The translations under genes were made by a program, and so were the position numbers. The notes beneath the pieces were generated by a model that did not search any database, was not told where the DNA came from, and was given only the letters and a program-made list of their open reading frames with translations. DNA of 64,000 bases from Candidatus Obscuribacter sp. (lineage in GTDB: Bacteria; Cyanobacteriota; Vampirovibrionia; Obscuribacterales; Obscuribacteraceae): NCBI GenBank assembly GCA_021772135.1, contig JADYXQ010000036.1:1-64000 (forward strand), read 5' to 3'. Shown piece after piece: positions 1 through 13,566 of this stretch (the stretch's first letter is position 1; every line of letters starts with the position of its first letter).

Positions 1-101
1 ATTCTGACTTGAAGCAGTAAGAAATATCGAGTCTACGCAATAGACTGTCAGACGATAGAATTTAGACCGCCGCAGATTTATCTGGGTGGTCTTTTTTTTA
101 C
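1..101 (+). ncRNA. 3' part of repeated structured RNA element, copy A (5' part lies outside the window)
   Basis: Near-identical to the 3' ends of copies B-D: ATTCTGACTTGAAGCAG..AAGAAATATCGAG..TACGCAATAG..GTCAGACGATAG then terminator GACCGCCGCAGATTTATCTGGGTGGTCTTTTTTTT. Hairpin GTCTA-CGCAA-TAGAC replaces GCCTA-CGCAA-TAGGC. Confidence 0.75.
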
Positions 102-168
102 AGCAATTTCGCGGTGGCCAGTGTCTCAAGCCATACTCTTCTAATTTCGCTGGCACCCATGCCGATTT

Positions 169-1881
169 CTAATTAACTTTCCCGATGAGAACGCCATAAG
201 CCGGTAGCTTCAGTGACTTAAGGTGCAGACTTTCTGACCCCGCGTCAAATGAGGCCAGCAGAGGTTCGGCAGTGTCAGCTGAAATGCCGTTGGCACTCAA
301 GTCAAGCTGAACGAATTTAGGAGCTGGTGTCATATTTAGTGCCACTACGACAATTTCGTCCTTACTCTTCCGCAAATAAGAAAGAACATCCGGGTTATGA
401 TCGTCTAGAGTTTCATAGCTACCATTTTTTAAAGCGTCTTCAGTTTTACGCAAATGAATCAGCTGCTTGTAGAAGTTGAGCACCGAATTTTTATCAGCAT
501 CCTCGCTGGCCACATTCACTTTTTTATAGTCGGGCGAAACCGGCAGCCACGGCTTGGCTTTGCTGAAACCGGCATTTATCTCACTGTTCCATTGCATCGG
601 TGTGCGTTCGCCATCTCGACCAATCTCCGCAGGCCAACCAATCTTTCCAATTGGATCTTGCACATCTTCTTTTGTTTTCGGATCGTTATTTTGCATTCCC
701 AATTCTTCGCCGTAATACATCATCGGCGTGCCACGCACGGTCATCAATACGGCTGCCGTCAATTTAGCAATATCTTCGTTATGAATTTTGTCGCCATATC
801 GAACGAAGTGCCGCACCTGGTCGTGGTTACTGAAGAAATACAGAGGCCAGCCGCCGGCAGGGTTCTTATCCCATTCGCTGATGCGTTTGCGAAACTCTGG
901 GGCCGACAATTTATTGATATAGGCCATAATGAAATTCATTGGCAGCTGAACTTCATCAAGATTTTTTCCGTATGACTTAGAAATTTCAGCGATGTCAGAG
1001 CCGGTTGTTTCGCCGATCAGAACTCGATCGCCCGGATACATATCGAGCACCGCTCGCAGCTCACGCAACACGTCGTGCACTTCAGGAAGTCGGTCGTTGT
1101 GCAGATATTCGGTATTTGGATCGCCGTATTGATTTTTGCCTTCTTTAACTGGATTATCCGGCAATTTTGGATCTTCGAAAAGCGCCTGCACGGCGTCAAG
1201 CCTGAAGCCAGCAACGCCTTTATCGAGCCAGAAGCGAGCGGCATCGTACATTGCCTTGCGCATTTCACTATTGCGCCAATTTAAATCTGGCTGTTCCGGA
1301 TAGAAGAAGTGATAATTATATTGACCAGTCTCTGGATACAATTTCCATGCTGAATGCCCAAAGAGAGAAATCCAGTTGTTAGGCGGAGCACCGTTCACAC
1401 CGTCTCGCCAGATGTACCAGTCTCTTTTTGCATTATCTTTGGAACTGGCCGATTCGACAAACCAGGGATGTTTATCAGAACTGTGGTTCATGACAAAGTC
1501 CATAATAATTTTGATATCGCGTTTTTTAGCTTCGGCCAGAAGCTCATCGAAATCAGCCATGGTTCCGTATTCTGGCGCAATGGCTTTGTAGTCGGAAATA
1601 TCATAGCCAAAGTCTACTTGCGGTGACGGGTAGCAAGGAGTGATCCACAGCGCATCCACACCTAGATCTTTTAAGTAATCTAGCTTTGACGTTATGCCTT
1701 TGATCTCACCAACGCCGTTGTTATCTGCGTCGGCAAAGCTGCGGGGATAAATTTCGTAAACCACGGCTTGTTTCCACCATGGTTCTTTCTCTGCCTCTTT
1801 GGCTATGGCAGTTGCGCAAAAGCTGCCGCATAGCGACAGGGCCAGAAGTGCGACTGAATATTTGCGAAATTTGCTAAACAT
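169..1881 (-). CDS. Secreted GH13 alpha-amylase-family protein (alpha-glucosidase / oligo-1,6-glucosidase-like)
   Basis: N-terminal signal peptide; WWKQAVVYEIYPRSFADADNNGVGEIKGI, DFVMNHSSDKHPWF, GVAGFRLDAVQ, GETTG, FFSNHDQVR motifs typical of GH13 alpha-glucosidases. Confidence 0.93.
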   Translation of the reverse strand: MFSKFRKYSVALLALSLCGSFCATAIAKEAEKEPWWKQAVVYEIYPRSFADADNNGVGEIKGITSKLDYLKDLGVDALWITPCYPSPQVDFGYDISDYKAIAPEYGTMADFDELLAEAKKRDIKIIMDFVMNHSSDKHPWFVESASSKDNAKRDWYIWRDGVNGAPPNNWISLFGHSAWKLYPETGQYNYHFFYPEQPDLNWRNSEMRKAMYDAARFWLDKGVAGFRLDAVQALFEDPKLPDNPVKEGKNQYGDPNTEYLHNDRLPEVHDVLRELRAVLDMYPGDRVLIGETTGSDIAEISKSYGKNLDEVQLPMNFIMAYINKLSAPEFRKRISEWDKNPAGGWPLYFFSNHDQVRHFVRYGDKIHNEDIAKLTAAVLMTVRGTPMMYYGEELGMQNNDPKTKEDVQDPIGKIGWPAEIGRDGERTPMQWNSEINAGFSKAKPWLPVSPDYKKVNVASEDADKNSVLNFYKQLIHLRKTEDALKNGSYETLDDHNPDVLSYLRKSKDEIVVVALNMTPAPKFVQLDLSANGISADTAEPLLASFDAGSESLHLKSLKLPAYGVLIGKVN

Positions 1882-2042
1882 GACTTCCCCAAGCGTGGCT
1901 CAAGGGGCAATTTTAGCAGGTCGTCAGTTTTCGATTTTGATGGTCTTGGCCAGAGTTAAATTCACCCTTCACCATTGGTAGCACCACACGACTGCATCGC
2001 CCAACAAATCGAAGACATTGGTGGGTCTTCGCGCAACAAAAT

Positions 2043-2579
2043 CTAAAACAGCTGATACCAGCGCGGAATGTAGAGTCGCTTATCTGCCAGTGTCAAAAAG
2101 AACGGTGCGACGTGCACGTTTTTAAAGAGAGATTTGAGCCGATGATATTCTTGCTCAAGGGCATCAAGTTCGCTTTTCACGGCCAGTTTTGCACTCTGTA
2201 CTTTAACAAATTGTTCAGCGCGACCTCTGCTCCAACCTTGATTTTCTAATGCAGCGACAATCTTTTCAGAATGCTCAAATAAATGCGCCATGCCGCAATC
2301 ATTGTGAGCCATGAGAAGAATGTTTTTTACTCCACGGGCGAGTACATAACCTCATGCCAGCTCTGAGCCAATCAGCCTCCCGCCGGGAGCGCAGATAACA
2401 TAGGCGTAATTAGATGGCACCGGCATGGAGTAGCGATATTCCATACAAGTGACAATTACAACTTGCGGGGTGGGTTGAGGGTGCAGCGGATAACCAAAAT
2501 TCTGCGCTTGAATCACTTGCTCAATGGGTGTGCCCTGCCAACGCACCAGAATATCTGCCGATGACTGCAATTCCACCAA
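2043..2579 (-). pseudogene. Carbonic-anhydrase-like gene interrupted by one in-frame TGA
   Basis: Two minus-strand ORFs (2352..2579 and 2043..2312) are in the same frame, separated by TGA at 2354..2352. Joined reading: VVIVTCMEYRY...ICAPGGRLIGSELA*GYVLARGVKNILLMAHNDCGMAHL, with the CxxxR and HxDCGM pattern of beta-carbonic anhydrases. No ATG start upstream in frame before a stop. Confidence 0.7.
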
Positions 2580-2727
2580 TTGATCTTTGTAGGCTGGATC
2601 TTTGTAAATATCAGAAAATAAATACAGCTCACTCTTTTGCCGTTTCGGCGTTAATTTACTTCTTTTATATTCTCAGCGTAGATCGGATCGGTTATGGCGA
2701 GGTGATCGATTTTGCAGCACCGTCCCC

Positions 2728-2905
2728 TGTTCGAAACTGCATATACAAATCAATTTGCGGCAACAGGCAGCCTGGTTCACGCGCTTGCCTACTTGAGTGC
2801 ATATCGCAAACAGCCCTGCAAGCCACCTCCAGAATTGTCAGCAGATATCCAATATATTTTCATCGGGGGACTTCTCATCAGATTCGATCCGGCTATACTT
2901 ATTTA
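2728..2905 (+). promoter_or_regulatory. Conserved upstream region/promoter of RNA copy B (dyad 2843-2859; -10 TATACT 2894-2899)
   Basis: Aligns with regions upstream of copies C and D: GAATTGTCA.CAGATAT-N5-ATAT.T ... GGGGGACTTC ... TTCGATC.GGCTATACTTAT. Confidence 0.6.
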
Positions 2906-3116
2906 CATAAGCGGTGAGCACACACCAATAAATAAGTTGTGTGCTTTGAGCCGAGGGGTTAAGTGGAAACATCAGGTCTGCGCAGACCGGAAACTGTAGT
3001 GATAACCCGCTAGCTGTGGATTCTGACTTGAAGCAGCAAGAAATATCGAGCCTACGCAATAGGCAGTCAGACGATAGTAATTAGACCACCGCAGATTTAT
3101 CTGGGTGGTCTTTTTG
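2906..3116 (+). ncRNA. Repeated structured RNA element, copy B (full)
   Basis: Hairpins AGCACACA..TGTGTGCT (2917-2945), GGTCTGCGCAGACC, TCTGACT..AGTCAGA enclosing GCCTA-CGCAA-TAGGC, and terminator GACCACCGCAGATTTATCTGGGTGGTCTTTTT. Near-identical to copies C and D. Confidence 0.8.
3084..3116 (+). terminator. Rho-independent terminator of RNA copy B
   Basis: GACCACC-G-CAGAT-TT-ATCTG-GGTGGTC followed by TTTTT. Confidence 0.85.
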
Positions 3117-3171
3117 TTTGCAGTCAGCGCCCAGCTGATAAACTGAGCACTTTAGTTTGGGGAAAATTCGT

Positions 3172-3783
3172 ATGAAAAAGCTGGCTGCCACTCTACTTAT
3201 ATGTTTGCTCTGCACAGTGGGTTCTGCCTGGTCACAATCGCCAACACCTGATGAGTGTCTTGCACGCGTAAAGAACATGGAGCCAATGTTGCCCAAACTA
3301 ATGGACAGCGCCTCGGCAGCAATTCACGCATTATTGCCAAACCCCGCCGCCTATGAGAAAACGCTGCCAACTATGGCGAAAGTAATTGCCACCAAAGACA
3401 AAACCAACTTAAAAAACTATGGCGGCTTGTCTGAAGGATTTTTCTTCGCCGGCGATAAAGTTAAAGGTGAGAAACTCTACAACCAATTTAAAGCCAACGC
3501 TAAAACCATTCTTGGGCCCACCGACACCTATCAGGCTCTGATAGAAGGAGACATGGGGTTGGTCTATTTCTATGAGAAGAACTATGCCAAGGCCGAGCCT
3601 ATGTTGCTCGACTCCAAAAACCAACTAGAGGCAAACCTTACCGCTGCCGTGGCCAACAACTTGATAACAGATTACATGTGCTTGTCGATGATGTACGACA
3701 AAAAAGGTAAACCGGCGGAAGCAAAAAAATACGCAAAAGCGCTTGTCGATCTGGCAGTGAAGCAGCGTTCGAAGCCTTTTTAA
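3172..3783 (+). CDS. Secreted TPR-like protein of unknown function
   Basis: Starts MKKLAATLLICLLCTVGSAWSQ (signal peptide); helical repeat-like body. Preferred ATG at 3172 over TTG at 3157. Confidence 0.65.
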   Translation: MKKLAATLLICLLCTVGSAWSQSPTPDECLARVKNMEPMLPKLMDSASAAIHALLPNPAAYEKTLPTMAKVIATKDKTNLKNYGGLSEGFFFAGDKVKGEKLYNQFKANAKTILGPTDTYQALIEGDMGLVYFYEKNYAKAEPMLLDSKNQLEANLTAAVANNLITDYMCLSMMYDKKGKPAEAKKYAKALVDLAVKQRSKPF

Positions 3784-3816
3784 AAACCGGATCGATATCG
3801 ATCCGGTTTTAGATTT

Positions 3817-4017
3817 GATGATCGTCTGCGCCAAAGCCCTGTTCAAAATCGCATATACAAACGAATTTGAAAGGCCTGGCGCTATGGGTCACGCGCTTGG
3901 CTAGACTGCTAGATATGCAGAACGCACCCTGAAGCCGCTTTTAGAATTGTCATCAGATATGTGAGATATCTTCAATGGGGGACTTCCTATCTCATTCGAT
4001 CTGGCTATACTTATTAC
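3817..4017 (+). promoter_or_regulatory. Conserved upstream region/promoter of RNA copy C (dyad 3955-3971; -10 TATACT 4006-4011)
   Basis: AGATAT-GTGAG-ATATCT, then 34 nt to TATACT, as in copies B and D. Confidence 0.6.
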
Positions 4018-4226
4018 ATAAGCGGTGAGCACACACCAATAAATAAGTTGTGTGCTTTGAGCCGAGGGGTTAAGTGGAAACACCAGGTCTGCGTAGACCA
4101 GAAACTGTAACGACACCCGCTAGCTGTGGATTCTGACTTGAAGCAGCAAGAGATATCGAGCCTACGCAATAGGCTGTCAGACGATAGTAATTAGACCACC
4201 GCAGATTTATCTGGGTGGTCTTTTTG
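4018..4226 (+). ncRNA. Repeated structured RNA element, copy C (full)
   Basis: Same hairpins and terminator as copy B; differences concentrate in loops (e.g. GGTCT-GCGT-AGACC). Confidence 0.8.
4194..4226 (+). terminator. Rho-independent terminator of RNA copy C
   Basis: GACCACCGCAGATTTATCTGGGTGGTC followed by TTTTT. Confidence 0.85.
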
Positions 4227-4269
4227 TTTACCGAATCGAACATGGTGAACGAGTATCTGGAAGGTTTTC

Positions 4270-5148
4270 GTGCAAGAGCTACTAAAACAAGCAAAATTCT
4301 CTCCCACAGATTTACTATCCTTGCCGACCCAGGATGGGGAGCCGGTCTACTATCTTCCAATCAAAATTGGGCAAGCAGAAAAATTACTTCAAGAGTTGAG
4401 GATGAAGGCCTCTGGCTCACATTGGTGCCCGGTGCTCGCCGAGGACAAAGATCGTTTAATCAGGTTGGCCTCAAATTCCTGTTCGTTTCTAGATGCTCCC
4501 ATACCGTCCGTTGAAGAAATTGCCGTACAGATTGCGCAGACGGAGCGCATACCGATACAAAAGGCACGCGACAAAGCGCCCGAACAGCAGCGCCTTTGCA
4601 CAATCGAGAAAAGTGGCCTGAAAGCTGCAGCTTCAACAACACAAATCATTGAAGCCGGAGAAAATTGTGATTTAGAACTCTGGCTTCGTTCAAGAGAAAA
4701 GCTCGGTGCGCTAGCGGACAGAACATACTCTTTAGATGGCCGCAGCACCGCAGCCAAATATTTAGAGATTCTTGGGCCAGACGAAATGTTTAAACAACAG
4801 GTTGAAGAACGAGCGCAATGGGATCTAAAAGAAATCATCATTTGCTTTGTACCAGTGCATTATTCCTGGCAAATTCCGGCTTTCTTCAGATACGGTGGCA
4901 CTGTCAACTGCCCGTCACCAGTGGTCAATACGGCCTTCATCAAACGCATGCATGATCGTTACGGCGCTGAAGTCGCGAGTATAGATACTACGTTTTTCGA
5001 GTTGCAATTGAGCGAAGCACCAAAGTCTACAGAAGTTGAATCGTTAGCCAAAGAACTCGCCATCTATAGTAAATATATTGGCGATCGCAGCCTGACTGTC
5101 TTCCAAAAATCTCTTAGCCAGAGCACCGTTTGGAGTTTTTATTCGTAG
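4270..5148 (+). CDS. DUF4253-like protein
   Basis: C-terminal part VPVHYSWQIPAFFRYGGTVNCPSPVVNTAFIKRMHDRYGAEV resembles DUF4253 proteins. GTG start. Confidence 0.65.
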   Translation: MQELLKQAKFSPTDLLSLPTQDGEPVYYLPIKIGQAEKLLQELRMKASGSHWCPVLAEDKDRLIRLASNSCSFLDAPIPSVEEIAVQIAQTERIPIQKARDKAPEQQRLCTIEKSGLKAAASTTQIIEAGENCDLELWLRSREKLGALADRTYSLDGRSTAAKYLEILGPDEMFKQQVEERAQWDLKEIIICFVPVHYSWQIPAFFRYGGTVNCPSPVVNTAFIKRMHDRYGAEVASIDTTFFELQLSEAPKSTEVESLAKELAIYSKYIGDRSLTVFQKSLSQSTVWSFYS

Positions 5149-5200
5149 AAATATTTGCGCGTTCAGGTGGTCTTTTTGTATGTTAATCCACATCAAGTTT

Positions 5201-6301
5201 TCATTGAAAGACTTCTTTATAAATGTCAACAGACTCTTCTTGGAGATTCTCCCAAACCACAGTTAGGCCTCGAAATTGTCTCTTCAGCGCGTCAATGTCT
5301 TTAGCACTGCCCTGTCGATGCTGCAAGCGCAAATACGTCAAAGGCAAGCCCTTCAGCGACATAAGGGTTTTAGCAGTGATTTTAGTAAAGGGCACAAGAA
5401 GCATATTGAGTTTCTTGAGCTGCTTCAATTCAGTCACGCATTTGTCGCTGAGATTTGGATTGTCGGTGATGTCCAGCTGTATTAGAGAAGAAGATTCCTT
5501 CACCGTCTTCATGTCGCCATCAAGAAGATGCGTGTTTGCCATTTTAAGAACCGAAAGTTTGGGATAGTTTTTAAGCGCCACCAAACATTTTAAATCAATG
5601 TCGTTGTAGCCAAAATTCAGATGTTTAATGCTTTTATTTAATTCAAACAAGAAGCGGCCACGCACTCGAGTGTGGTCAAGAATGAGTGTTTCGAGCTGCT
5701 TCAATCCGGCCAGTTTTTTTAAGCTATCATCGCTCACTTCTGTGCCCGTTAATTCCAGCCTTCTGAGATTAGAAAAGCGCGCAAGCATCTGCAAGTCTTT
5801 CTCATCAAAAATAGTATTGCTCAACGTAAGGCTTGTCAGGGCTTCGCTTGGAATAGCGTCGAGCACTTTCATGGTATTTCCCAATCCCATGAAGTCTGTA
5901 GAGCGAAAGGAAATGTGAGATCCAATTGGAACACTGATGGGGCCGTTTGCTTCTCCTAGTTTTTTGCCAGGAGCGTGTTTACCGCAATAGTCAGCAGTGT
6001 CGGATGTAATGCCAATTTCGCCGATCTTACCCTTGAGCGGAAATTTGATTGTGAAAAAGCCTCCAGGTAATACAGCTTTGTTTGCCTTTTGGGCTAAGAC
6101 CGGCTCGACGAGGCCGCAATCGCTGAAGCCACATAAGGTACATGCCAAAATCAAGGCGAAAATTATTATTGAAGGGCGGTAAGGTCTCGGGCATTTAAAC
6201 CCGGTCGGCACATTTGCACTTGATAGCATCAGTTTTAAGTACTCTTTTTGCATTTCATTCGCAGGTCTGAAGGCAATTCCAGGAGTGCTCTGCGGCATCA
6301 T
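5201..6301 (-). CDS. Leucine-rich-repeat protein with N-terminal membrane/signal segment
   Basis: Repeats such as SLTLSNTIFDEKDLQMLARFSNLRRLELTGTEVSDDSLKKLAGLKQLETLILDHTRV. Start chosen at MMPQ because the upstream extension overlaps an inverted-repeat-rich stretch. Confidence 0.75.
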   Translation of the reverse strand: MMPQSTPGIAFRPANEMQKEYLKLMLSSANVPTGFKCPRPYRPSIIIFALILACTLCGFSDCGLVEPVLAQKANKAVLPGGFFTIKFPLKGKIGEIGITSDTADYCGKHAPGKKLGEANGPISVPIGSHISFRSTDFMGLGNTMKVLDAIPSEALTSLTLSNTIFDEKDLQMLARFSNLRRLELTGTEVSDDSLKKLAGLKQLETLILDHTRVRGRFLFELNKSIKHLNFGYNDIDLKCLVALKNYPKLSVLKMANTHLLDGDMKTVKESSSLIQLDITDNPNLSDKCVTELKQLKKLNMLLVPFTKITAKTLMSLKGLPLTYLRLQHRQGSAKDIDALKRQFRGLTVVWENLQEESVDIYKEVFQ

Positions 6302-6482
6302 CTGGGCGCCCTTTTTAACCGTACACCGCATAGTGTACATGCCAGTGCGCCAATGGTGCAACGCCCGATCATAAAGGTTGCGCCTGGTGCAAAGCACCGA
6401 ATCCAGTGGCATCTATAACGTCTGGGCGCTAGCGCACCATGTACGGTGCCCCATTTTCACACCACCAGTTTGTCCGCAACCG

Positions 6483-7112
6483 TCAATTGTCGCTTCTCTC
6501 TGCATGCATCAGAAGGTGAGCATAAGGCTGCACTGGCGCGGGCTGAGGCGTGGCAACGCTTTCCTTTGCCGCGCGGCTGATTTGCCTGCCGCGATTTGCC
6601 ACGGCCTTGCGCATTTCTCGTGAAAGCCGCACTTCTTTGACTTCGATTTTGGTAATGCGAATGCCAAAATCTTTTGTTTGTCTGTCGAGAATATTCTTGA
6701 GATTGAAATTGACGCGATTGCGATCTGAAAGCAAATGCGCCAGATCGTTATTGCCTACTGCGGTGCGCACTGCACTTTCAGCTAGTTCTTTGGTGGCGCT
6801 CGCTAGATTTACCACCTTTGTCACTGCTTTTTTAGCATCAACGATCTGATACAGACACAGCGCTGAAACTTTGACCGATATATTGTCTGAGGTCAAAACC
6901 TGCACTGCCGGAATCGACAAAGTGACAATGCGAGTGTCGACCACTTGTGCCTTGTCCATCATCGGCACTACCAATTGAAGGCCGGGTCCCTTGTCAGCAA
7001 CGACTTTGCCATGCCGAAAAACTACCAGGCGGTCATATTCTTTAACGACTTTGATGCCCGAGAGAATTATCATTATTGAGAGTACGAACACGCCGCCTAA
7101 TATTTCGAACAT
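6483..7112 (-). CDS. SPFH/Band 7 domain protein (slipin/stomatin-like)
   Basis: VKEYDRLVVFRHGKVVADKGPGLQLVVPMMDKAQVVDTRIVTLSIPAVQVLTSDNISVKVSALCLYQIVDAKKAV...AVGNNDLAHLLSDR. Confidence 0.88.
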   Translation of the reverse strand: MFEILGGVFVLSIMIILSGIKVVKEYDRLVVFRHGKVVADKGPGLQLVVPMMDKAQVVDTRIVTLSIPAVQVLTSDNISVKVSALCLYQIVDAKKAVTKVVNLASATKELAESAVRTAVGNNDLAHLLSDRNRVNFNLKNILDRQTKDFGIRITKIEVKEVRLSREMRKAVANRGRQISRAAKESVATPQPAPVQPYAHLLMHAERSDN

Positions 7113-7251
7113 CGTCTCTCCTAATGCAGGCTGTATTCATTCTAGTGCCCGCGGCGCAATATGAGAACCGGGAAAAGCCTGATTCAGTAAAATCCCTACT
7201 ATACATATTGCGCTTCTGAGCTACGATGAATAAGTAGTCCGAGGGCAAAGC

Positions 7252-10083
7252 ATGGTCAACAGACAGAGCCTGACGCTTGAACGCGCACTAAGCAAGCCGC
7301 AGTCAAAACCCTTACTAATCAAACAATTACTTAGACCAGTTAAACATGGTCCTTTTTTCCTCGCTTTCGGCGTGCTTCTACCACTGGCCGCCGCAGTTTT
7401 CGAGCTGATCACCCACTTTTGCGCTCAGCATTATTTTGATCCATTCCCCTCGGCCAATCACGTTGTCTTATTCATGCTCATACCCTTGAGCAACTATCTG
7501 GCTTGGCTTTCCGGCAGAAAAGATATGTCGGCCCATTTCGGCTTTATGTCTCTCATCAGCGGCATGGCCATGGGCATCGGCTGTTTGTACGCTCTAATGT
7601 TCCTGCCGATGACCGCGACGTCCGCGATGTACACACTGTACTTTGGCTTTGGCCTGCTTGGCCTTGCGCCCCTTTTGTCTATTCCGTGCACCTGGCTGGG
7701 CGGAAAGACCGTTTGTCGGTTGGCCACGAAAAGAAAAACATTCTTCGACTCACACCAGGTCGAACACATCGGCCATCTGATCGTGCTCTGCATGGTCATT
7801 GCCATCGAATTTCCCTCCACCGCCACCCGCATGAATTTGAGCAAAGCAGCAGAAGGAAATGCCCCGGCCATAGCCTGGTTGAGACAGTTCGGCAGTGAAG
7901 AAGTGATGCTCCGAGCCTGCTACGAACGCTCTGGTCGGGCCACGGATATTCTTGGCTCTATGTACGAAAGCGGCCATCCATTAAGTATTGAGAAGGCGCG
8001 CGCGATTTTTTATCAAGTCACCGGCAAACCATTTAATTCGGTGCCAATTCCAAGTTCGGCCCGGGCCACGATTCAGCACGCCGGTTTGATAGACGATCCC
8101 GCTTTGGTGAATGCTAAAGTCGAAGACGAATTTGACCTTGACGCCGACATTGCCGGTGAAAACGTCAGTGGACTGGCGCGCGGCTTAACTGTGGCGGAAG
8201 CAAATACCATTGGAACAGTAAGCACTGACGCGGCAGTGGCAGATCTGGAATGGTCGATGCAGTTCGCCAACGTCTCTAAATATGATCGTGAAGCCAGGGC
8301 CAAACTATTGTTACCGCCGGGCGGAGTTGTCACTAAAGCAACAGTGATAGTCAATGGTATCGAGCGCGACGCAACCATTCAGCTGCGCAGCGCAGCACGC
8401 AATTATTATCGCCAATCGCTGGTTGAACAAAAAGCACCGCTTCTGGTGAGCACTTGCGGAGTCGACCAGATTTTAATTCAGTGCTTCCCCGTGCAACCAA
8501 ACAGCTCAATGAAGGTGAAACTGAAAATTGCCGCTCCACTGGTACTGAGTCAAGATAAAGGCCGAGCGGCGCTGACCTTGCCTACTCTGCAAGAACGCAA
8601 TTTTCAGTTTGACGTAGACAATTTTGTAAACATTCACGCCAATAAACCGCTCACGGCTTCAAGCTCGCTTTTGACTGCCAGCACCGCCCCTGGTGATTAT
8701 CAGATTTCCGGCAAGCTCTCTTCAGCACAATTATCAAGATTCGCTGGGGTAATCTGGTGTGATCGTGATCCCAATTGCACAATGGCGGTGGTAGAACATT
8801 CGGGCGCAAGAATAGCTCGCCATGTTTCTTTGCCCGCCTACAAAACCCCAAAGGCACTGGTTATTTTGGTAGACGGCTCAGCGTCTATGAAAAATTACAT
8901 GGCCGACATATCGACCGCACTTAAAAGTTTGCAGACAGCAATGCAAACACAAATAATGTTTGTCGGCGATAACAGCTCAATTCTCCACGACCCCACCGCG
9001 CTGCTAGACAACAAACCGGCTGGCGGCCAATCAGACGACAAAGCTCTGGTCAATTATTTAAAAACACCCAATATTTCCGTGCTCTGGATTCACGGCTCTC
9101 AACCAATCAGCACCGAAAACAAAACTGCTTTCCACCAACTTTTAAATGTTCCCTCAGATGCGCCCCGGCTTTACGATCTGCAGATAACTGCTGGGCCAAA
9201 TGAGATCTTGAATGACTTAAATTATAGTCCTAACTTTGTGCGCGTCGCTCGATTGGGCACAGTCAAATCTGATCTGGAACGATTATTTTCGCAATGGCAG
9301 CCCACTGCCACCACTACAAATCAATTCGAATTGTGGCCGGCAGAAAATATTGTGCCTGCTAACACGGCTGCGGCACCAGATTGTGTGGCTCAACTTTACG
9401 GTTACGAGCAAGTGTTAGCCGGCCTTCAGAATACCTTAGACCCTGCTGCCGAGCAAAGTCGCGCGCTGGGACTGGCGTCGCAGTTTCAGATTGTCACTCC
9501 AGTATCGAGCGCGGTTGTAGTCGATTTCAACATTGCTCCGGCCACTCACCCTGCGCCGACAAAAGTCGCACTGCCTAAACTCTGGAACCCACTATCAGGA
9601 CTAGACCAAATTAGAATTGACGCAATGGAAAAAGTGACAACCCAGCTAAATAGTCACTCAAGGGCAGCTGCAACCGCCGGCTGGTTCTCAGAGCCGCGCA
9701 GCGCAGTGTTGTATAACGGTGAAAATACTGAGTTCAAGGCTAAGGAATCAGACTTTAAAGCAGACCGAGCCAATTTCACTGCCGCTGGTGGCGCAGACGC
9801 AGACCAGGTTTACAAACAAGAACCCGGGCAGCCCGCAGCTGCAGCGCCGAGCGAAAATTTGACATTGCAGGGTGCCACAAATGGCACAGTCAGACAGCCT
9901 AGCCTTCCAACCAATGGCCTTGTTGGTGCACCTGTAAATCCTCGCTATGGTCAATCTAACGAAGTTGGACAATTAGCTGTTTACGACGAACGTTTTGACT
10001 GGCGATGGATAATGGGTGCCGCTGCGGCCCTTCTTCTGTTTGCTTTCCTCTTGCGAAAATTTCTCCTCAAGAAAAAAGCATAA
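7252..10083 (+). CDS. Multi-pass membrane protein with VIT-like and von Willebrand A-like domains
   Basis: Several N-terminal TM helices; VIT-like region (VTKATVIVNGIERDATIQLRSAARNYYRQSLVEQKAPLL); vWA-like KALVILVDGSASMKNYM; C-terminal TM plus KKK tail. Confidence 0.65.
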   Translation: MVNRQSLTLERALSKPQSKPLLIKQLLRPVKHGPFFLAFGVLLPLAAAVFELITHFCAQHYFDPFPSANHVVLFMLIPLSNYLAWLSGRKDMSAHFGFMSLISGMAMGIGCLYALMFLPMTATSAMYTLYFGFGLLGLAPLLSIPCTWLGGKTVCRLATKRKTFFDSHQVEHIGHLIVLCMVIAIEFPSTATRMNLSKAAEGNAPAIAWLRQFGSEEVMLRACYERSGRATDILGSMYESGHPLSIEKARAIFYQVTGKPFNSVPIPSSARATIQHAGLIDDPALVNAKVEDEFDLDADIAGENVSGLARGLTVAEANTIGTVSTDAAVADLEWSMQFANVSKYDREARAKLLLPPGGVVTKATVIVNGIERDATIQLRSAARNYYRQSLVEQKAPLLVSTCGVDQILIQCFPVQPNSSMKVKLKIAAPLVLSQDKGRAALTLPTLQERNFQFDVDNFVNIHANKPLTASSSLLTASTAPGDYQISGKLSSAQLSRFAGVIWCDRDPNCTMAVVEHSGARIARHVSLPAYKTPKALVILVDGSASMKNYMADISTALKSLQTAMQTQIMFVGDNSSILHDPTALLDNKPAGGQSDDKALVNYLKTPNISVLWIHGSQPISTENKTAFHQLLNVPSDAPRLYDLQITAGPNEILNDLNYSPNFVRVARLGTVKSDLERLFSQWQPTATTTNQFELWPAENIVPANTAAAPDCVAQLYGYEQVLAGLQNTLDPAAEQSRALGLASQFQIVTPVSSAVVVDFNIAPATHPAPTKVALPKLWNPLSGLDQIRIDAMEKVTTQLNSHSRAAATAGWFSEPRSAVLYNGENTEFKAKESDFKADRANFTAAGGADADQVYKQEPGQPAAAAPSENLTLQGATNGTVRQPSLPTNGLVGAPVNPRYGQSNEVGQLAVYDERFDWRWIMGAAAALLLFAFLLRKFLLKKKA

Positions 10084-10096
10084 AAAAAAGTTGGCT

Positions 10097-10273
10097 GTTC
10101 ATAACTCGATATACGAGTGAATTTTGAGTAACAGGCGCCGTGGGCCACGCGCTTGGCTTGCCTGTAGGATATCGAAAGCCGCCACTAAAGTCGCTTTTCG
10201 AATTGTCATCAGATATGCAAAATATCTTCTACGGGGGACTTCCTATCTCATTCGATCTGGCTATACTTATTAC
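10097..10273 (+). promoter_or_regulatory. Conserved upstream region/promoter of RNA copy D (dyad 10211-10227; -10 TATACT 10262-10267)
   Basis: AGATAT-GCAAA-ATATCT, then 34 nt to TATACT, same spacing as copies B and C. Confidence 0.6.
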
Positions 10274-10484
10274 ATAAGCGGTGAGCACACACCAATCAAT
10301 AAGTTGTGTGCTTTGAGCCGAGGGGTTAAGTGGAAACATCAGGTCGGCGCAGACCAGAAACCGTAACGACACCCGCTAGCTGTGGATTCTGACTTGAAGC
10401 AGCAAGAAATATCGAGCCTACGCAATAGGCAGTCAGACGATAGTAAAAAGACCACCGCAGATTTATCTGGGTGGTCTTTTTGTT
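10274..10484 (+). ncRNA. Repeated structured RNA element, copy D (full)
   Basis: About nine substitutions relative to copy C over roughly 210 nt by eye; all hairpins and terminator preserved. Confidence 0.8.
10449..10484 (+). terminator. Rho-independent terminator of RNA copy D
   Basis: AAAAAGACCACCGCAGATTTATCTGGGTGGTCTTTTT; A tract and T tract make it look bidirectional. Confidence 0.85.
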
Positions 10485-10558
10485 TGTAAAATTAACAACT
10501 CAGCAACAAACTGACTGTAGATTCAATCCTATCGTGGAACACCAATAGGAGTGACTAT

Positions 10559-10861
10559 ATGCCTGATCGTAATTCTGAAAGCAACATGGTGCGTGACGCA
10601 AAACAGATGGCCCGAAGATTAGACAACGTTCCATGCTTCGACAATTCTGATTCAGGAGACCGAGCTTCCGAACGACTAGTCTACGAAGCCAACGACGAGC
10701 TCAAGAGCCTGTCTCAAAAATATGGCAAAGACCAGTTCGCAAAATTTGTCACTTTAGTAAATAAGTACGACAAGAACCACCAGGGCCTAGATATTGATCC
10801 GTTGTTTGATAAAAACGGAAAAGTACATGGTTTTGAAATTGGGGTGCTGAGACGCTATTGA
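10559..10861 (+). CDS. Small hypothetical protein
   Basis: AATAGGAGTGACTAT ribosome-binding-like sequence before ATG; 100 aa soluble acidic/basic composition. Confidence 0.55.
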   Translation: MPDRNSESNMVRDAKQMARRLDNVPCFDNSDSGDRASERLVYEANDELKSLSQKYGKDQFAKFVTLVNKYDKNHQGLDIDPLFDKNGKVHGFEIGVLRRY

Positions 10862-10929
10862 AGACCCTATTGAAGACGCAATTGAAGTCCAACCACACGT
10901 CACGCAAAAACCTAAAAGTTTGATTACTT

Positions 10930-11336
10930 TCGTCGAAAAGCTCTGCAAATCAGTTCTGTACCGATAGCACTGATTTGTGCACATCCGAACCGTTTCTTTT
11001 CGATCGATAATACTTTTGCGCCGCCTTGAGCACTCGAGCGCGAGGCTAACAGTTGGATCAGCAGCACATTCAAAAGCTCTCACCGTACTGAGAACATTTC
11101 CCTGATCGAGGCCGGTTAGCACAGACACGGCTCCGAGCGGCATCAGTGGCGATAACTCGCGCGCTTCGAAATCGCTTGCCGTTTCACTGCGATGAATTCA
11201 TGGCAGCCACTCGACGCTTTAAAATTGCCAGCATAAGCGAGTGCAAGTCTGCACCTGAAACTTTATAGGCCAACGTCTCGACTAAATCAGGCGAGCCAAG
11301 ATCGCCGGCAATGCGAATTGCTATTTGTTCGCTCAT
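10930..11336 (-). pseudogene. Frameshifted, truncated gene remnant
   Basis: Minus strand: MSEQIAIRIAGDLGSPDLVETLAYKVSGADLHSLMLAILKRRVAAMNSSQ* (11336..11184), then continuing protein-like sequence in another frame: ETASDFEARELSPLMPLGAVSVLTGLDQGNVLSTVRAFECAADPTVSLALEC (from 11185). Confidence 0.5.
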
Positions 11337-11349
11337 TGTCAGTTACATG

Positions 11350-13566
11350 CTACATCGAAGTCGAATTGCGCTTATCGGCAAGCGATGTTCCTGGTTCTTC
11401 TTCAACAATCTTTGGCGTAATTAAAAGCATAAGCTCTGTACGGTTTCTGCCTTTCAAAGTATTTCTGAAAAGCGCACCAAGCACGGGAGCTTCTGCTAAA
11501 TAAGGTGTCTTAGCCAATTGAGCCGATTCCTGTTCGGTGAAAATACCGCCCAGTACAAGTGTCTGTCCGTCTTTAATACGCACTTCCTGCGCCATGATAT
11601 CTCTATAGTTCAAAAGAGTGACAACTACAGTTGGTGCGGTCGCCGGCCCGAAGAGCAGAGGCGGCCCCAGTGGAGTTGAAACTTGCGGCCGCAGGCGCAT
11701 GGTGATGAATCCATCTTGCGTAACTTTAGGCAGTACGTTTAAGAAGATGCCGGCCTTAGTCAACTCAACGTTAGTTGTGACCACGCCCAAACTGACCGTA
11801 GATGTCACTTTATGCACAACTTCCGAAGCGATGGTGATCAGTGCTTCAGAATTGTCTACCACTACAACAGAAGGGTTGGCAATCAACTTTGCTTTGTTGG
11901 TTTGCAAAAGTAAATTGAGCGATAAGTTTAAAGCGTGAGGAATAGTGGCAATGTTGGCACGGCCGCCGGCACGTCCGTCAGCAGTAATAAAATTGAAAGC
12001 ACTCTGGGCTGTCGATAGAGCGTTAACCCCGGCAATACTGGGAGCCAGAATCGGCACCAGTGATCCGATTAAACCGCTATAGGCAGTGCCCGGTTGACCT
12101 GCACCAAGCACGGCACCATTGGTGACGTTCGATCCGGTAAAGGGAATGGCCGGAATTGTCGGGTTGGGTGTGGAATTGGCGGGTGAACCTAAGCCAGGCA
12201 GGAACGTTTTCAAAGGCGCCTGCGAATTACCCATAATTGAAGTAGACAGACCTTCACCCTGCAAGTTGAGGGTGGCGCCCAGTTGTCTGATGCCCTGATT
12301 ATTTAGTTCGATAAGCGAGGCTTGAATGTGCACCTGCTTCGGACGACGGTCTATCAGTCTAATAGCGTCTTCGGCAATGTTGACGTCGTCGACGGTGCCC
12401 ACCACAATTACCTGGCGACCTTTAACGTCAGGTATGACTATGGCGCCACCACCATTAGGGTCAACGCTAAAGTCGGCGGCAATTTCTAAATTAGCTCTGA
12501 TCTGCTGCGTGCCGGGGTCGGTAGCAGCATTGTTGAAGCCCACGCCTTCCTGGGTTTGCGAGCGGCTGGTGCCGCGCAGAGTGCGTGCTTGAGTTTCGAG
12601 CGAATAGCTTTGCGTGCTATCAGTATCGCTTTTTGTGCCTTCGCGATCGCTGCTCTTTTCGCCAAACTTTTCAACTGAAGGACCGCTTAAATCACTTCCC
12701 TGACCAGAGCCTTGTTTTTCACTGGCACTATCTTCGGTGCTCTCACTGGCCAACTGACGTTTAGTGGTGGTCTTAAAATCAGGCAGATAGCCTTTGTTGA
12801 AAATTGAGGCTGAAAGCAAAGCGGCCACATCATATGGGTGCGAGTAGCTCAACTTAAACGCTCTGGCCATGGGCCTGTTCAAGCCCAATTGCACCATTGC
12901 CTGAGTCGATCCCACCACGATAGTGCTGTTATCGAGCACGCGGCTTTGCAAACCGGCGGCAGCTAAAACGTTATCCATGGCTTCGTTCAGTGAAACATCA
13001 CGCAAGTCACCGGTAATTTTTCCACTGCACGATTTATCAATAATGATGTTGACGTTGCCGCGTCTGGCAATTTCAGCAATTACATCTTTAACCGGCGTGT
13101 CTCTAAAACTGAGGTGATGAATTAGACCATTTTGATTTTGCAGAAATAGTTTGAATGGTCGGCGTATTTTGACTTCGCCGGTGACGCCGGGCAAGCTGTT
13201 GCGTGTCACTGAGCGCATTGAGCCCTGGGCAATCTTGCGACCATCTGCGTCTGAATCGGCTGCCGACTTGGCACTGTCGGGTTTGATGGCACTGACATTT
13301 CCAGCATCAATATCAGATAACTTGGCTGGTCCACTGGCATCAATAGAGCTTGCATCAGCGCCACTTGAAGTTGGATTGACCGAAGGATCTGAAATTAGTT
13401 CAGCCGGTGTGTCAGCGCTTGAAAGTGGGTTAGAGCTACTGTTGGTAGGCAATGCAAAAGTCGGCAGTGCCACCAGAGAATTTAAACCAATCGAAAGAGC
13501 AACTGATAGTGACACCACATGCGATATCACTAATCGTTTAGCAGGCTTTTGGCTATTTGCTTGCAC
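11350..13566 (-). CDS. Type II/IV secretion secretin (PilQ/GspD-like)
   Basis: Secretin N-terminal domain (LSFRDTPVKDVIAEIARRGNVNIIIDKSCSGKITGDLRDVSLNEAMDNVL) and secretin domain with VRIKDGQTLVLGGIFTEQE...ELMLLITPKIVEE. Confidence 0.92.
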   Translation of the reverse strand: MQANSQKPAKRLVISHVVSLSVALSIGLNSLVALPTFALPTNSSSNPLSSADTPAELISDPSVNPTSSGADASSIDASGPAKLSDIDAGNVSAIKPDSAKSAADSDADGRKIAQGSMRSVTRNSLPGVTGEVKIRRPFKLFLQNQNGLIHHLSFRDTPVKDVIAEIARRGNVNIIIDKSCSGKITGDLRDVSLNEAMDNVLAAAGLQSRVLDNSTIVVGSTQAMVQLGLNRPMARAFKLSYSHPYDVAALLSASIFNKGYLPDFKTTTKRQLASESTEDSASEKQGSGQGSDLSGPSVEKFGEKSSDREGTKSDTDSTQSYSLETQARTLRGTSRSQTQEGVGFNNAATDPGTQQIRANLEIAADFSVDPNGGGAIVIPDVKGRQVIVVGTVDDVNIAEDAIRLIDRRPKQVHIQASLIELNNQGIRQLGATLNLQGEGLSTSIMGNSQAPLKTFLPGLGSPANSTPNPTIPAIPFTGSNVTNGAVLGAGQPGTAYSGLIGSLVPILAPSIAGVNALSTAQSAFNFITADGRAGGRANIATIPHALNLSLNLLLQTNKAKLIANPSVVVVDNSEALITIASEVVHKVTSTVSLGVVTTNVELTKAGIFLNVLPKVTQDGFITMRLRPQVSTPLGPPLLFGPATAPTVVVTLLNYRDIMAQEVRIKDGQTLVLGGIFTEQESAQLAKTPYLAEAPVLGALFRNTLKGRNRTELMLLITPKIVEEEPGTSLADKRNSTSM

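Follow-up and report, generated by a model that had tools for sequence, protein, structure and literature searches.

Among the described systems that come closest to the locus studied here, CsrB/C, RsmX/Y/Z and Qrr are sibling small RNAs that act in trans and are encoded in several dispersed copies with their own promoters and terminators, an arrangement which the present RNA shares. Closer still is poplar-1 (RF03041), a curated Rfam family of type Gene; sRNA, without assigned function, whose model spans 141 positions and has a gathering score of 110.5 bits. As far as we checked, poplar-1 had so far amounted to a name and a core model with no worked-out gene, and a literature search, outside of which the family's discovery paper lay, found neither poplar-1 in connection with RNA nor Obscuribacter in connection with small RNA.

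In the window, i.e., the whole stretch of 64,000 nt analysed here (contig C192 of its genome from base 1), we found three complete copies of a structured RNA gene of ~212 nt and, in addition, a 3' fragment of it. They are 90-98% identical across the aligned stretches (92-98% for the complete copies over the RNA itself) and all lie on the + strand, precisely where the initial annotation had placed them. Copies B (2906..3116), C (4018..4226) and D (10274..10484) match RF03041 across the entire model (positions 1-141) with 117.7, 112.2 and 113.7 bits, respectively, all above the gathering score, and they reach 201, 195.2 and 199 bits with R1, a covariance model of 206 positions made from an alignment of 67 copies. 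Copy A (1..101) holds the 3' part only, as the contig starts inside the gene; it matches R1 positions 109-206 with 78.6 bits, and its bases 1-62 represent the 3' half of RF03041 (positions 79-141, 33.5 bits). The element is poplar-1, a family already catalogued in Rfam. Sub-threshold Rfam matches in the region to snoZ256, CbSR2 and CLRN1-AS1 were taken as chance.

The initial annotation, which had proposed a family of sibling small RNAs of unknown class, is thus upheld in part. Its "unknown class" has to be given up in view of a significant Rfam match, the very finding it had named as counting against itself, while the Rfam search of the window bears out its view that the element is not tmRNA, RNase P, SRP or 6S RNA; the sibling-RNA part is supported by the autonomous promoter and terminator, the dispersed paralogs, the covariation and the lack of a link to downstream genes. 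In core fold and sequence, the copies show no difference from RF03041. However, the unit delineated here has 206 positions compared with the 141 of the Rfam model, which covers the core only and leaves the 5' hairpin and the terminator outside, and the structure line of that model (the object of this comparison, rather than the original family description) has no pseudoknot. The family being known, our additions relative to the Rfam model are the transcription unit, the pseudoknot, the promoter and the host assignment. With predicted transcript boundaries, a pseudoknot backed by covariation, a private promoter and a host order, the transcript, its regulator and its partner become directly testable.

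The full unit, as seen in the 67-copy alignment, consists of a 5' hairpin, P2/P3, P4, P5, P6, a pseudoknot and a terminator, and displays strong compensatory change. Its helices were recovered from column-pair statistics on the alignment with no structure preset. The 10 helices, pseudoknot included, have 92.6% of their cells paired, against 32-37% in slid controls, a contrast that is flattered by deriving the structure from the same alignment; independent of this are the both-side changes, which affect 45 of the 55 pairs and amount to 634 cells versus 177 in shuffles, none of the 500 shuffles being as high. Given a fold z of -3.3 and no shuffle among 500 that attains any covariation measure, the structure of the repeat is not due to chance, and covariation in a wider alignment, a check that the initial annotation had itself suggested, is present.

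In copy B, the 5' hairpin (2912..2953; helix 1, both-side changes in 6 of 8 pairs), outside the Rfam model, combines CGG/CCG (2912-2914 with 2951-2953) and AGCACACA/TGTGTGCT. It is followed by P2 (GGGTTA/TAACCC, 2956..3008), which surrounds P3 (GGTCT/AGACC, 2975-2988) with a GGAAAC motif on each side (helices 2-5), and by the P4 hairpin (3010..3040, 3010-3017 with 3033-3040; helix 6, both-side changes in 7 of 8 pairs), whose loop holds TCTGACT. P6 (TATC/GATA, 3044..3076) encloses P5 (GCCTA/TAGGC, 3050-3064; helices 8 and 9), and the unit ends in an intrinsic terminator, likewise outside the Rfam model, formed by GACCACC...GGTGGTC and a T tract (3084..3115; helix 10, both-side changes in 10 of 11 pairs, 97% paired). 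The strong terminator recognized by the initial annotation is thereby backed by covariation, and the hairpins it had named exist in the sequence; a mechanical terminator scan misses the poplar-1 terminators, probably owing to a bulge in their stems. The closing pair AGCGG..CCGCT, considered possible at the outset, is less likely on the basis of the fold than CGG/CCG together with GGGTTA/TAACCC, although these positions are near-invariant and do not settle the choice.

A two-level stem TCTGAC..GTCAGA around GCCTA..TAGGC, which had also been proposed, turned out to be a pseudoknot, TCTGAC lying in the loop of the overlooked P4 hairpin. The pseudoknot (3022..3071 in copy B; helix 7, both-side changes in 5 of 5 pairs) joins the P4 loop (3022-3028, TCTGACT) to the strand between P5 and P6 (3065-3071, AGTCAGA). 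Fixed columns undercount its pairing, because in the window's genus the loop sits one base out of register; when counted per sequence, 66 of the 67 copies make at least 5 pairs, mostly 7. The two strands are exchanged as whole units (CUGACUG/CAGUCAG, CUAGCUG/CAGCUAG, UUGGCUG/CAGCCAA and UCCAAUU/AAUUGGA), and in the model-found set the mean longest pairing is 6.9, as opposed to 3.6 with shuffled strands and 5.8 with strands swapped between sequences.

Homology among the copies reaches ~180-200 nt farther upstream than the initial annotation had described, and this stretch is promoter rather than RNA. Over these ~180-200 nt, copies B, C and D are 72-85% identical; the conserved upstream regions span 2727..2893 for copy B (repeat families D5 and D6), with the promoter and distal boxes such as GGTTCACGCGCTTG, 3839..4005 for copy C and 10095..10261 for copy D, all on the + strand and all supported by repeat homology and by conserved columns (92 upstream segments). 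A whole-genome pattern search located the promoter cores at 2865..2899 (GGGGGACTTC ... TATACT, copy B), 3977..4011 (copy C) and 10233..10267 (copy D). The promoter common to poplar-1 genes consists of GGGGKAST (GGGG[TG]A[CG]T), 20-22 nt and a TATACT-like -10, with A/T-rich and GCGCTTG-like boxes farther up (125 copies). Of 125 upstream segments, 101 have their -10 offset by 29 nt from GGGG, and in 54 the hexamer reads TATACT; as the GGGG anchor was imposed, the evidence resides in this spacing and in the adjacent columns, not in the invariance of GGGG itself.

This promoter is nearly exclusive to poplar-1 genes. Scanning the window's own genome with the pattern gave seven matches, six of them at poplar-1 copies (three on C192 and one each on C40, C127 and C189), and promoter matches coincided by coordinates with poplar-1 copies in 9/9, 8/9 and 6/7 cases in the genomes G017, G018 and G027, respectively, while genomes free of poplar-1 have few matches, roughly as many as the reversed control gives. 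One genome with no poplar-1 match, G033, carries two promoter-like sequences of the form GGGGGACTT...TATAGT (C197:18400-18674 and C235:15280-15560) whose upstream flanks have over 100 identical bases in common. Both contigs stop 7-8 nt past these sequences, as if an unassembled multi-copy element came next, be it an rRNA operon or a divergent form of poplar-1.

We considered whether poplar-1 might be a cis-acting leader, i.e., a riboswitch or attenuator that would govern the following gene through its terminator. The terminator at the 3' end and the + strand ORF within about 100 nt downstream of copies B, C and D would fit such a role, but the gene after copy A encodes an amylase and converges on it, arrays with no called ORF between copies exist (e.g., locus L088), and among mechanically called ORFs the next one downstream is codirectional in just 65 of 110 cases. 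Clustering of 588 neighbour ORFs yielded no family tied to poplar-1 and none near more than a few copies, and the members of the largest clusters resemble general kinases and metabolic genes. A leader of this kind, for which the downstream genes should be consistently codirectional and functionally related, is hence very improbable, and the same observations on orientation and on the lack of a shared family indicate an independent, probably trans-acting RNA. The upstream ORF is codirectional in 60 of 119 cases (again mechanically called), and the upstream gap, typically near 200 nt, fits the promoter region. Judged from this organization, poplar-1 probably acts as an independent sRNA gene with its own promoter and terminator and no linked downstream gene. 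As for the neighbourhood itself, the window encodes a 943-aa VIT-domain protein between copies C and D (7252-10083), DUF4253 at 4270-5148 and a secretin domain at 11350-13566.

The window's own genome (G000) has seven RF03041 matches. Contig C189 carries a copy truncated by its right end, and its left end holds the promoter and 5' half of another. This 5' half together with window positions 1-101 resembles a single intact copy (L085) of the relative G003; copy A is thus probably split between C189 and C192 and would add one more copy to the genome. Assemblies often break inside poplar-1 copies, so that copy numbers are underestimates. Within the genus, the copies form lineages common to several genomes (the C127 copy and one of G003 are 99.5% identical), which argues that many of them are old and do not stem from recent bursts. 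A divergent single paralog, G000:C80:47981-48179 (L192, L001), in which CGGUGCG replaces CGGUGAG and the promoter is a variant one, has one similar copy in each of the six genomes of the genus (the others being L022, L026, L027, L028 and L034).

Repeated and clustered copies, often at contig ends, could also be read as selfish or mobile repeats of a REP-like or cassette-like type, with no RNA gene in them. Yet the homology runs from promoter to terminator and then stops, the copy lineages are common to genomes within the genus, and the compensatory changes act on RNA pairs, all of which makes this reading highly improbable. A plasmid or phage origin was likewise considered, and no match emerged in the plasmids or phages searched.

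With regard to host range, most records retrieved by pattern carry the label Obscuribacterales, Melainabacteria or Cyanobacteria. Some loci retrieved with the 17-base pattern are chance matches in other phyla that lack the remainder of the RNA (e.g., L037, L040 and L067). The RF03041 model is matched in 34 of 60 relatives and in none of the 21 that lie outside the order. R1 finds 1-14 copies in each of 48 out of 53 Obscuribacterales genomes and no match in 296 further genomes drawn from the phylum (297 with the window's own); within the order, poplar-1 was not found even at E = 1 in G014, G016, G026, G033 and G073. As judged from the genomes searched, the host of poplar-1 is one order, Obscuribacterales, non-photosynthetic relatives of cyanobacteria.

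What might such an RNA do? In the reading we prefer, and to which we give about an even chance of being right, each copy is an independent ~212-nt poplar-1 gene under shared promoter control, and the RNA, most likely bound to protein, has a trans-acting role. A dedicated regulator, or order-specific polymerase recognition at the unusual -35 region, would switch the poplar-1 genes on together; the RNA would then fold into a compact, trans-acting particle, for which the most likely mode of action is protein binding as scaffold or decoy rather than pairing with mRNAs, and the several copies would provide dosage or separately tuned expression. Protein binding is preferred over mRNA pairing because the conserved sequence is for the most part located within helices or between them, and we infer a role as RNP or decoy from the compact conserved fold, the mostly paired conserved sequence and the lack of gene linkage. 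As a tentative possibility, rather doubtful at present, poplar-1 may be the RNA of an order-specific RNP with a regulon composed solely of one RNA's copies and a regulator recognising GGGGKAST at -35; should a dedicated promoter be real, it would represent a rare promoter type reserved for one multi-copy RNA.

As a counterpoint to protein binding, GAGCCGAGGGG and GGAAAC could be exposed and pair with RNA targets. The 60 unique sequences of the model-found set contain the former in 52 cases and the latter in 58; in most of alignment A1 both are fixed by construction, since the loci were found with them. Base-pairing sibling sRNAs, in which an exposed conserved stretch, e.g., around GAGCCGAGGGG, would pair with mRNAs in trans as in Qrr, would accord with several paralogs per genome that each have a promoter and a terminator and with the strong conservation of GAGCCGAGG (57 of 60 unique sequences); nevertheless, the conserved stretch is mostly paired in the predicted fold and Hfq is unrecognised in the carriers, and we hold this explanation to be unlikely. 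None of 26 Obscuribacterales genomes gave an Hfq over the cut-off, which speaks against an Hfq-dependent sRNA; the control finds Hfq in five named genomes, although a divergent Sm-like protein could escape the search. A1 columns 74-75, between GGAAAC and CAGG (2971-2972 in copy B), vary freely (AT, AC, TT, GA and GC, among others), even among one genome's copies, while their flanks are near-invariant, and have no consistent pairing partner.

Unlike CsrB/C, RsmX/Y/Z and Qrr, poplar-1 has a more elaborate conserved fold, and nearly all its carriers are without a recognizable CsrA and Hfq. A CsrB/RsmZ-like sponge for CsrA could be imagined from a multi-copy sRNA with the repeated GGA-containing motif GGAAAC, but instead of many GGA loops there are just two or three such motifs, of which the second often reads AGAAAC, and CsrA was found in only one of the 26 Obscuribacterales genomes searched, the window's own being among the 25 others; to the extent that the absence of CsrA is genuine, the sponge is refuted and can be regarded as next to impossible.

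Finally, poplar-1 resembles 6S RNA (RF00013) in size and independent transcription, and its own promoter and order-wide conservation would also accord with a 6S-like RNA that binds RNA polymerase. On the other hand, poplar-1 is multi-copy, its fold is a different one with no long hairpin bearing a central bubble, and the copies have no 6S match in Rfam (none in window positions 1-11000 up to E = 5), so this proposal appears quite improbable. Moreover, weak full-length single 6S candidates are found elsewhere in 20 of 40 related genomes, including our own, where the candidate G000:C169:4443-4651 (E 9.8e-4) scores below the Rfam cut-off; 6S RNA in this class may deserve a model of its own.
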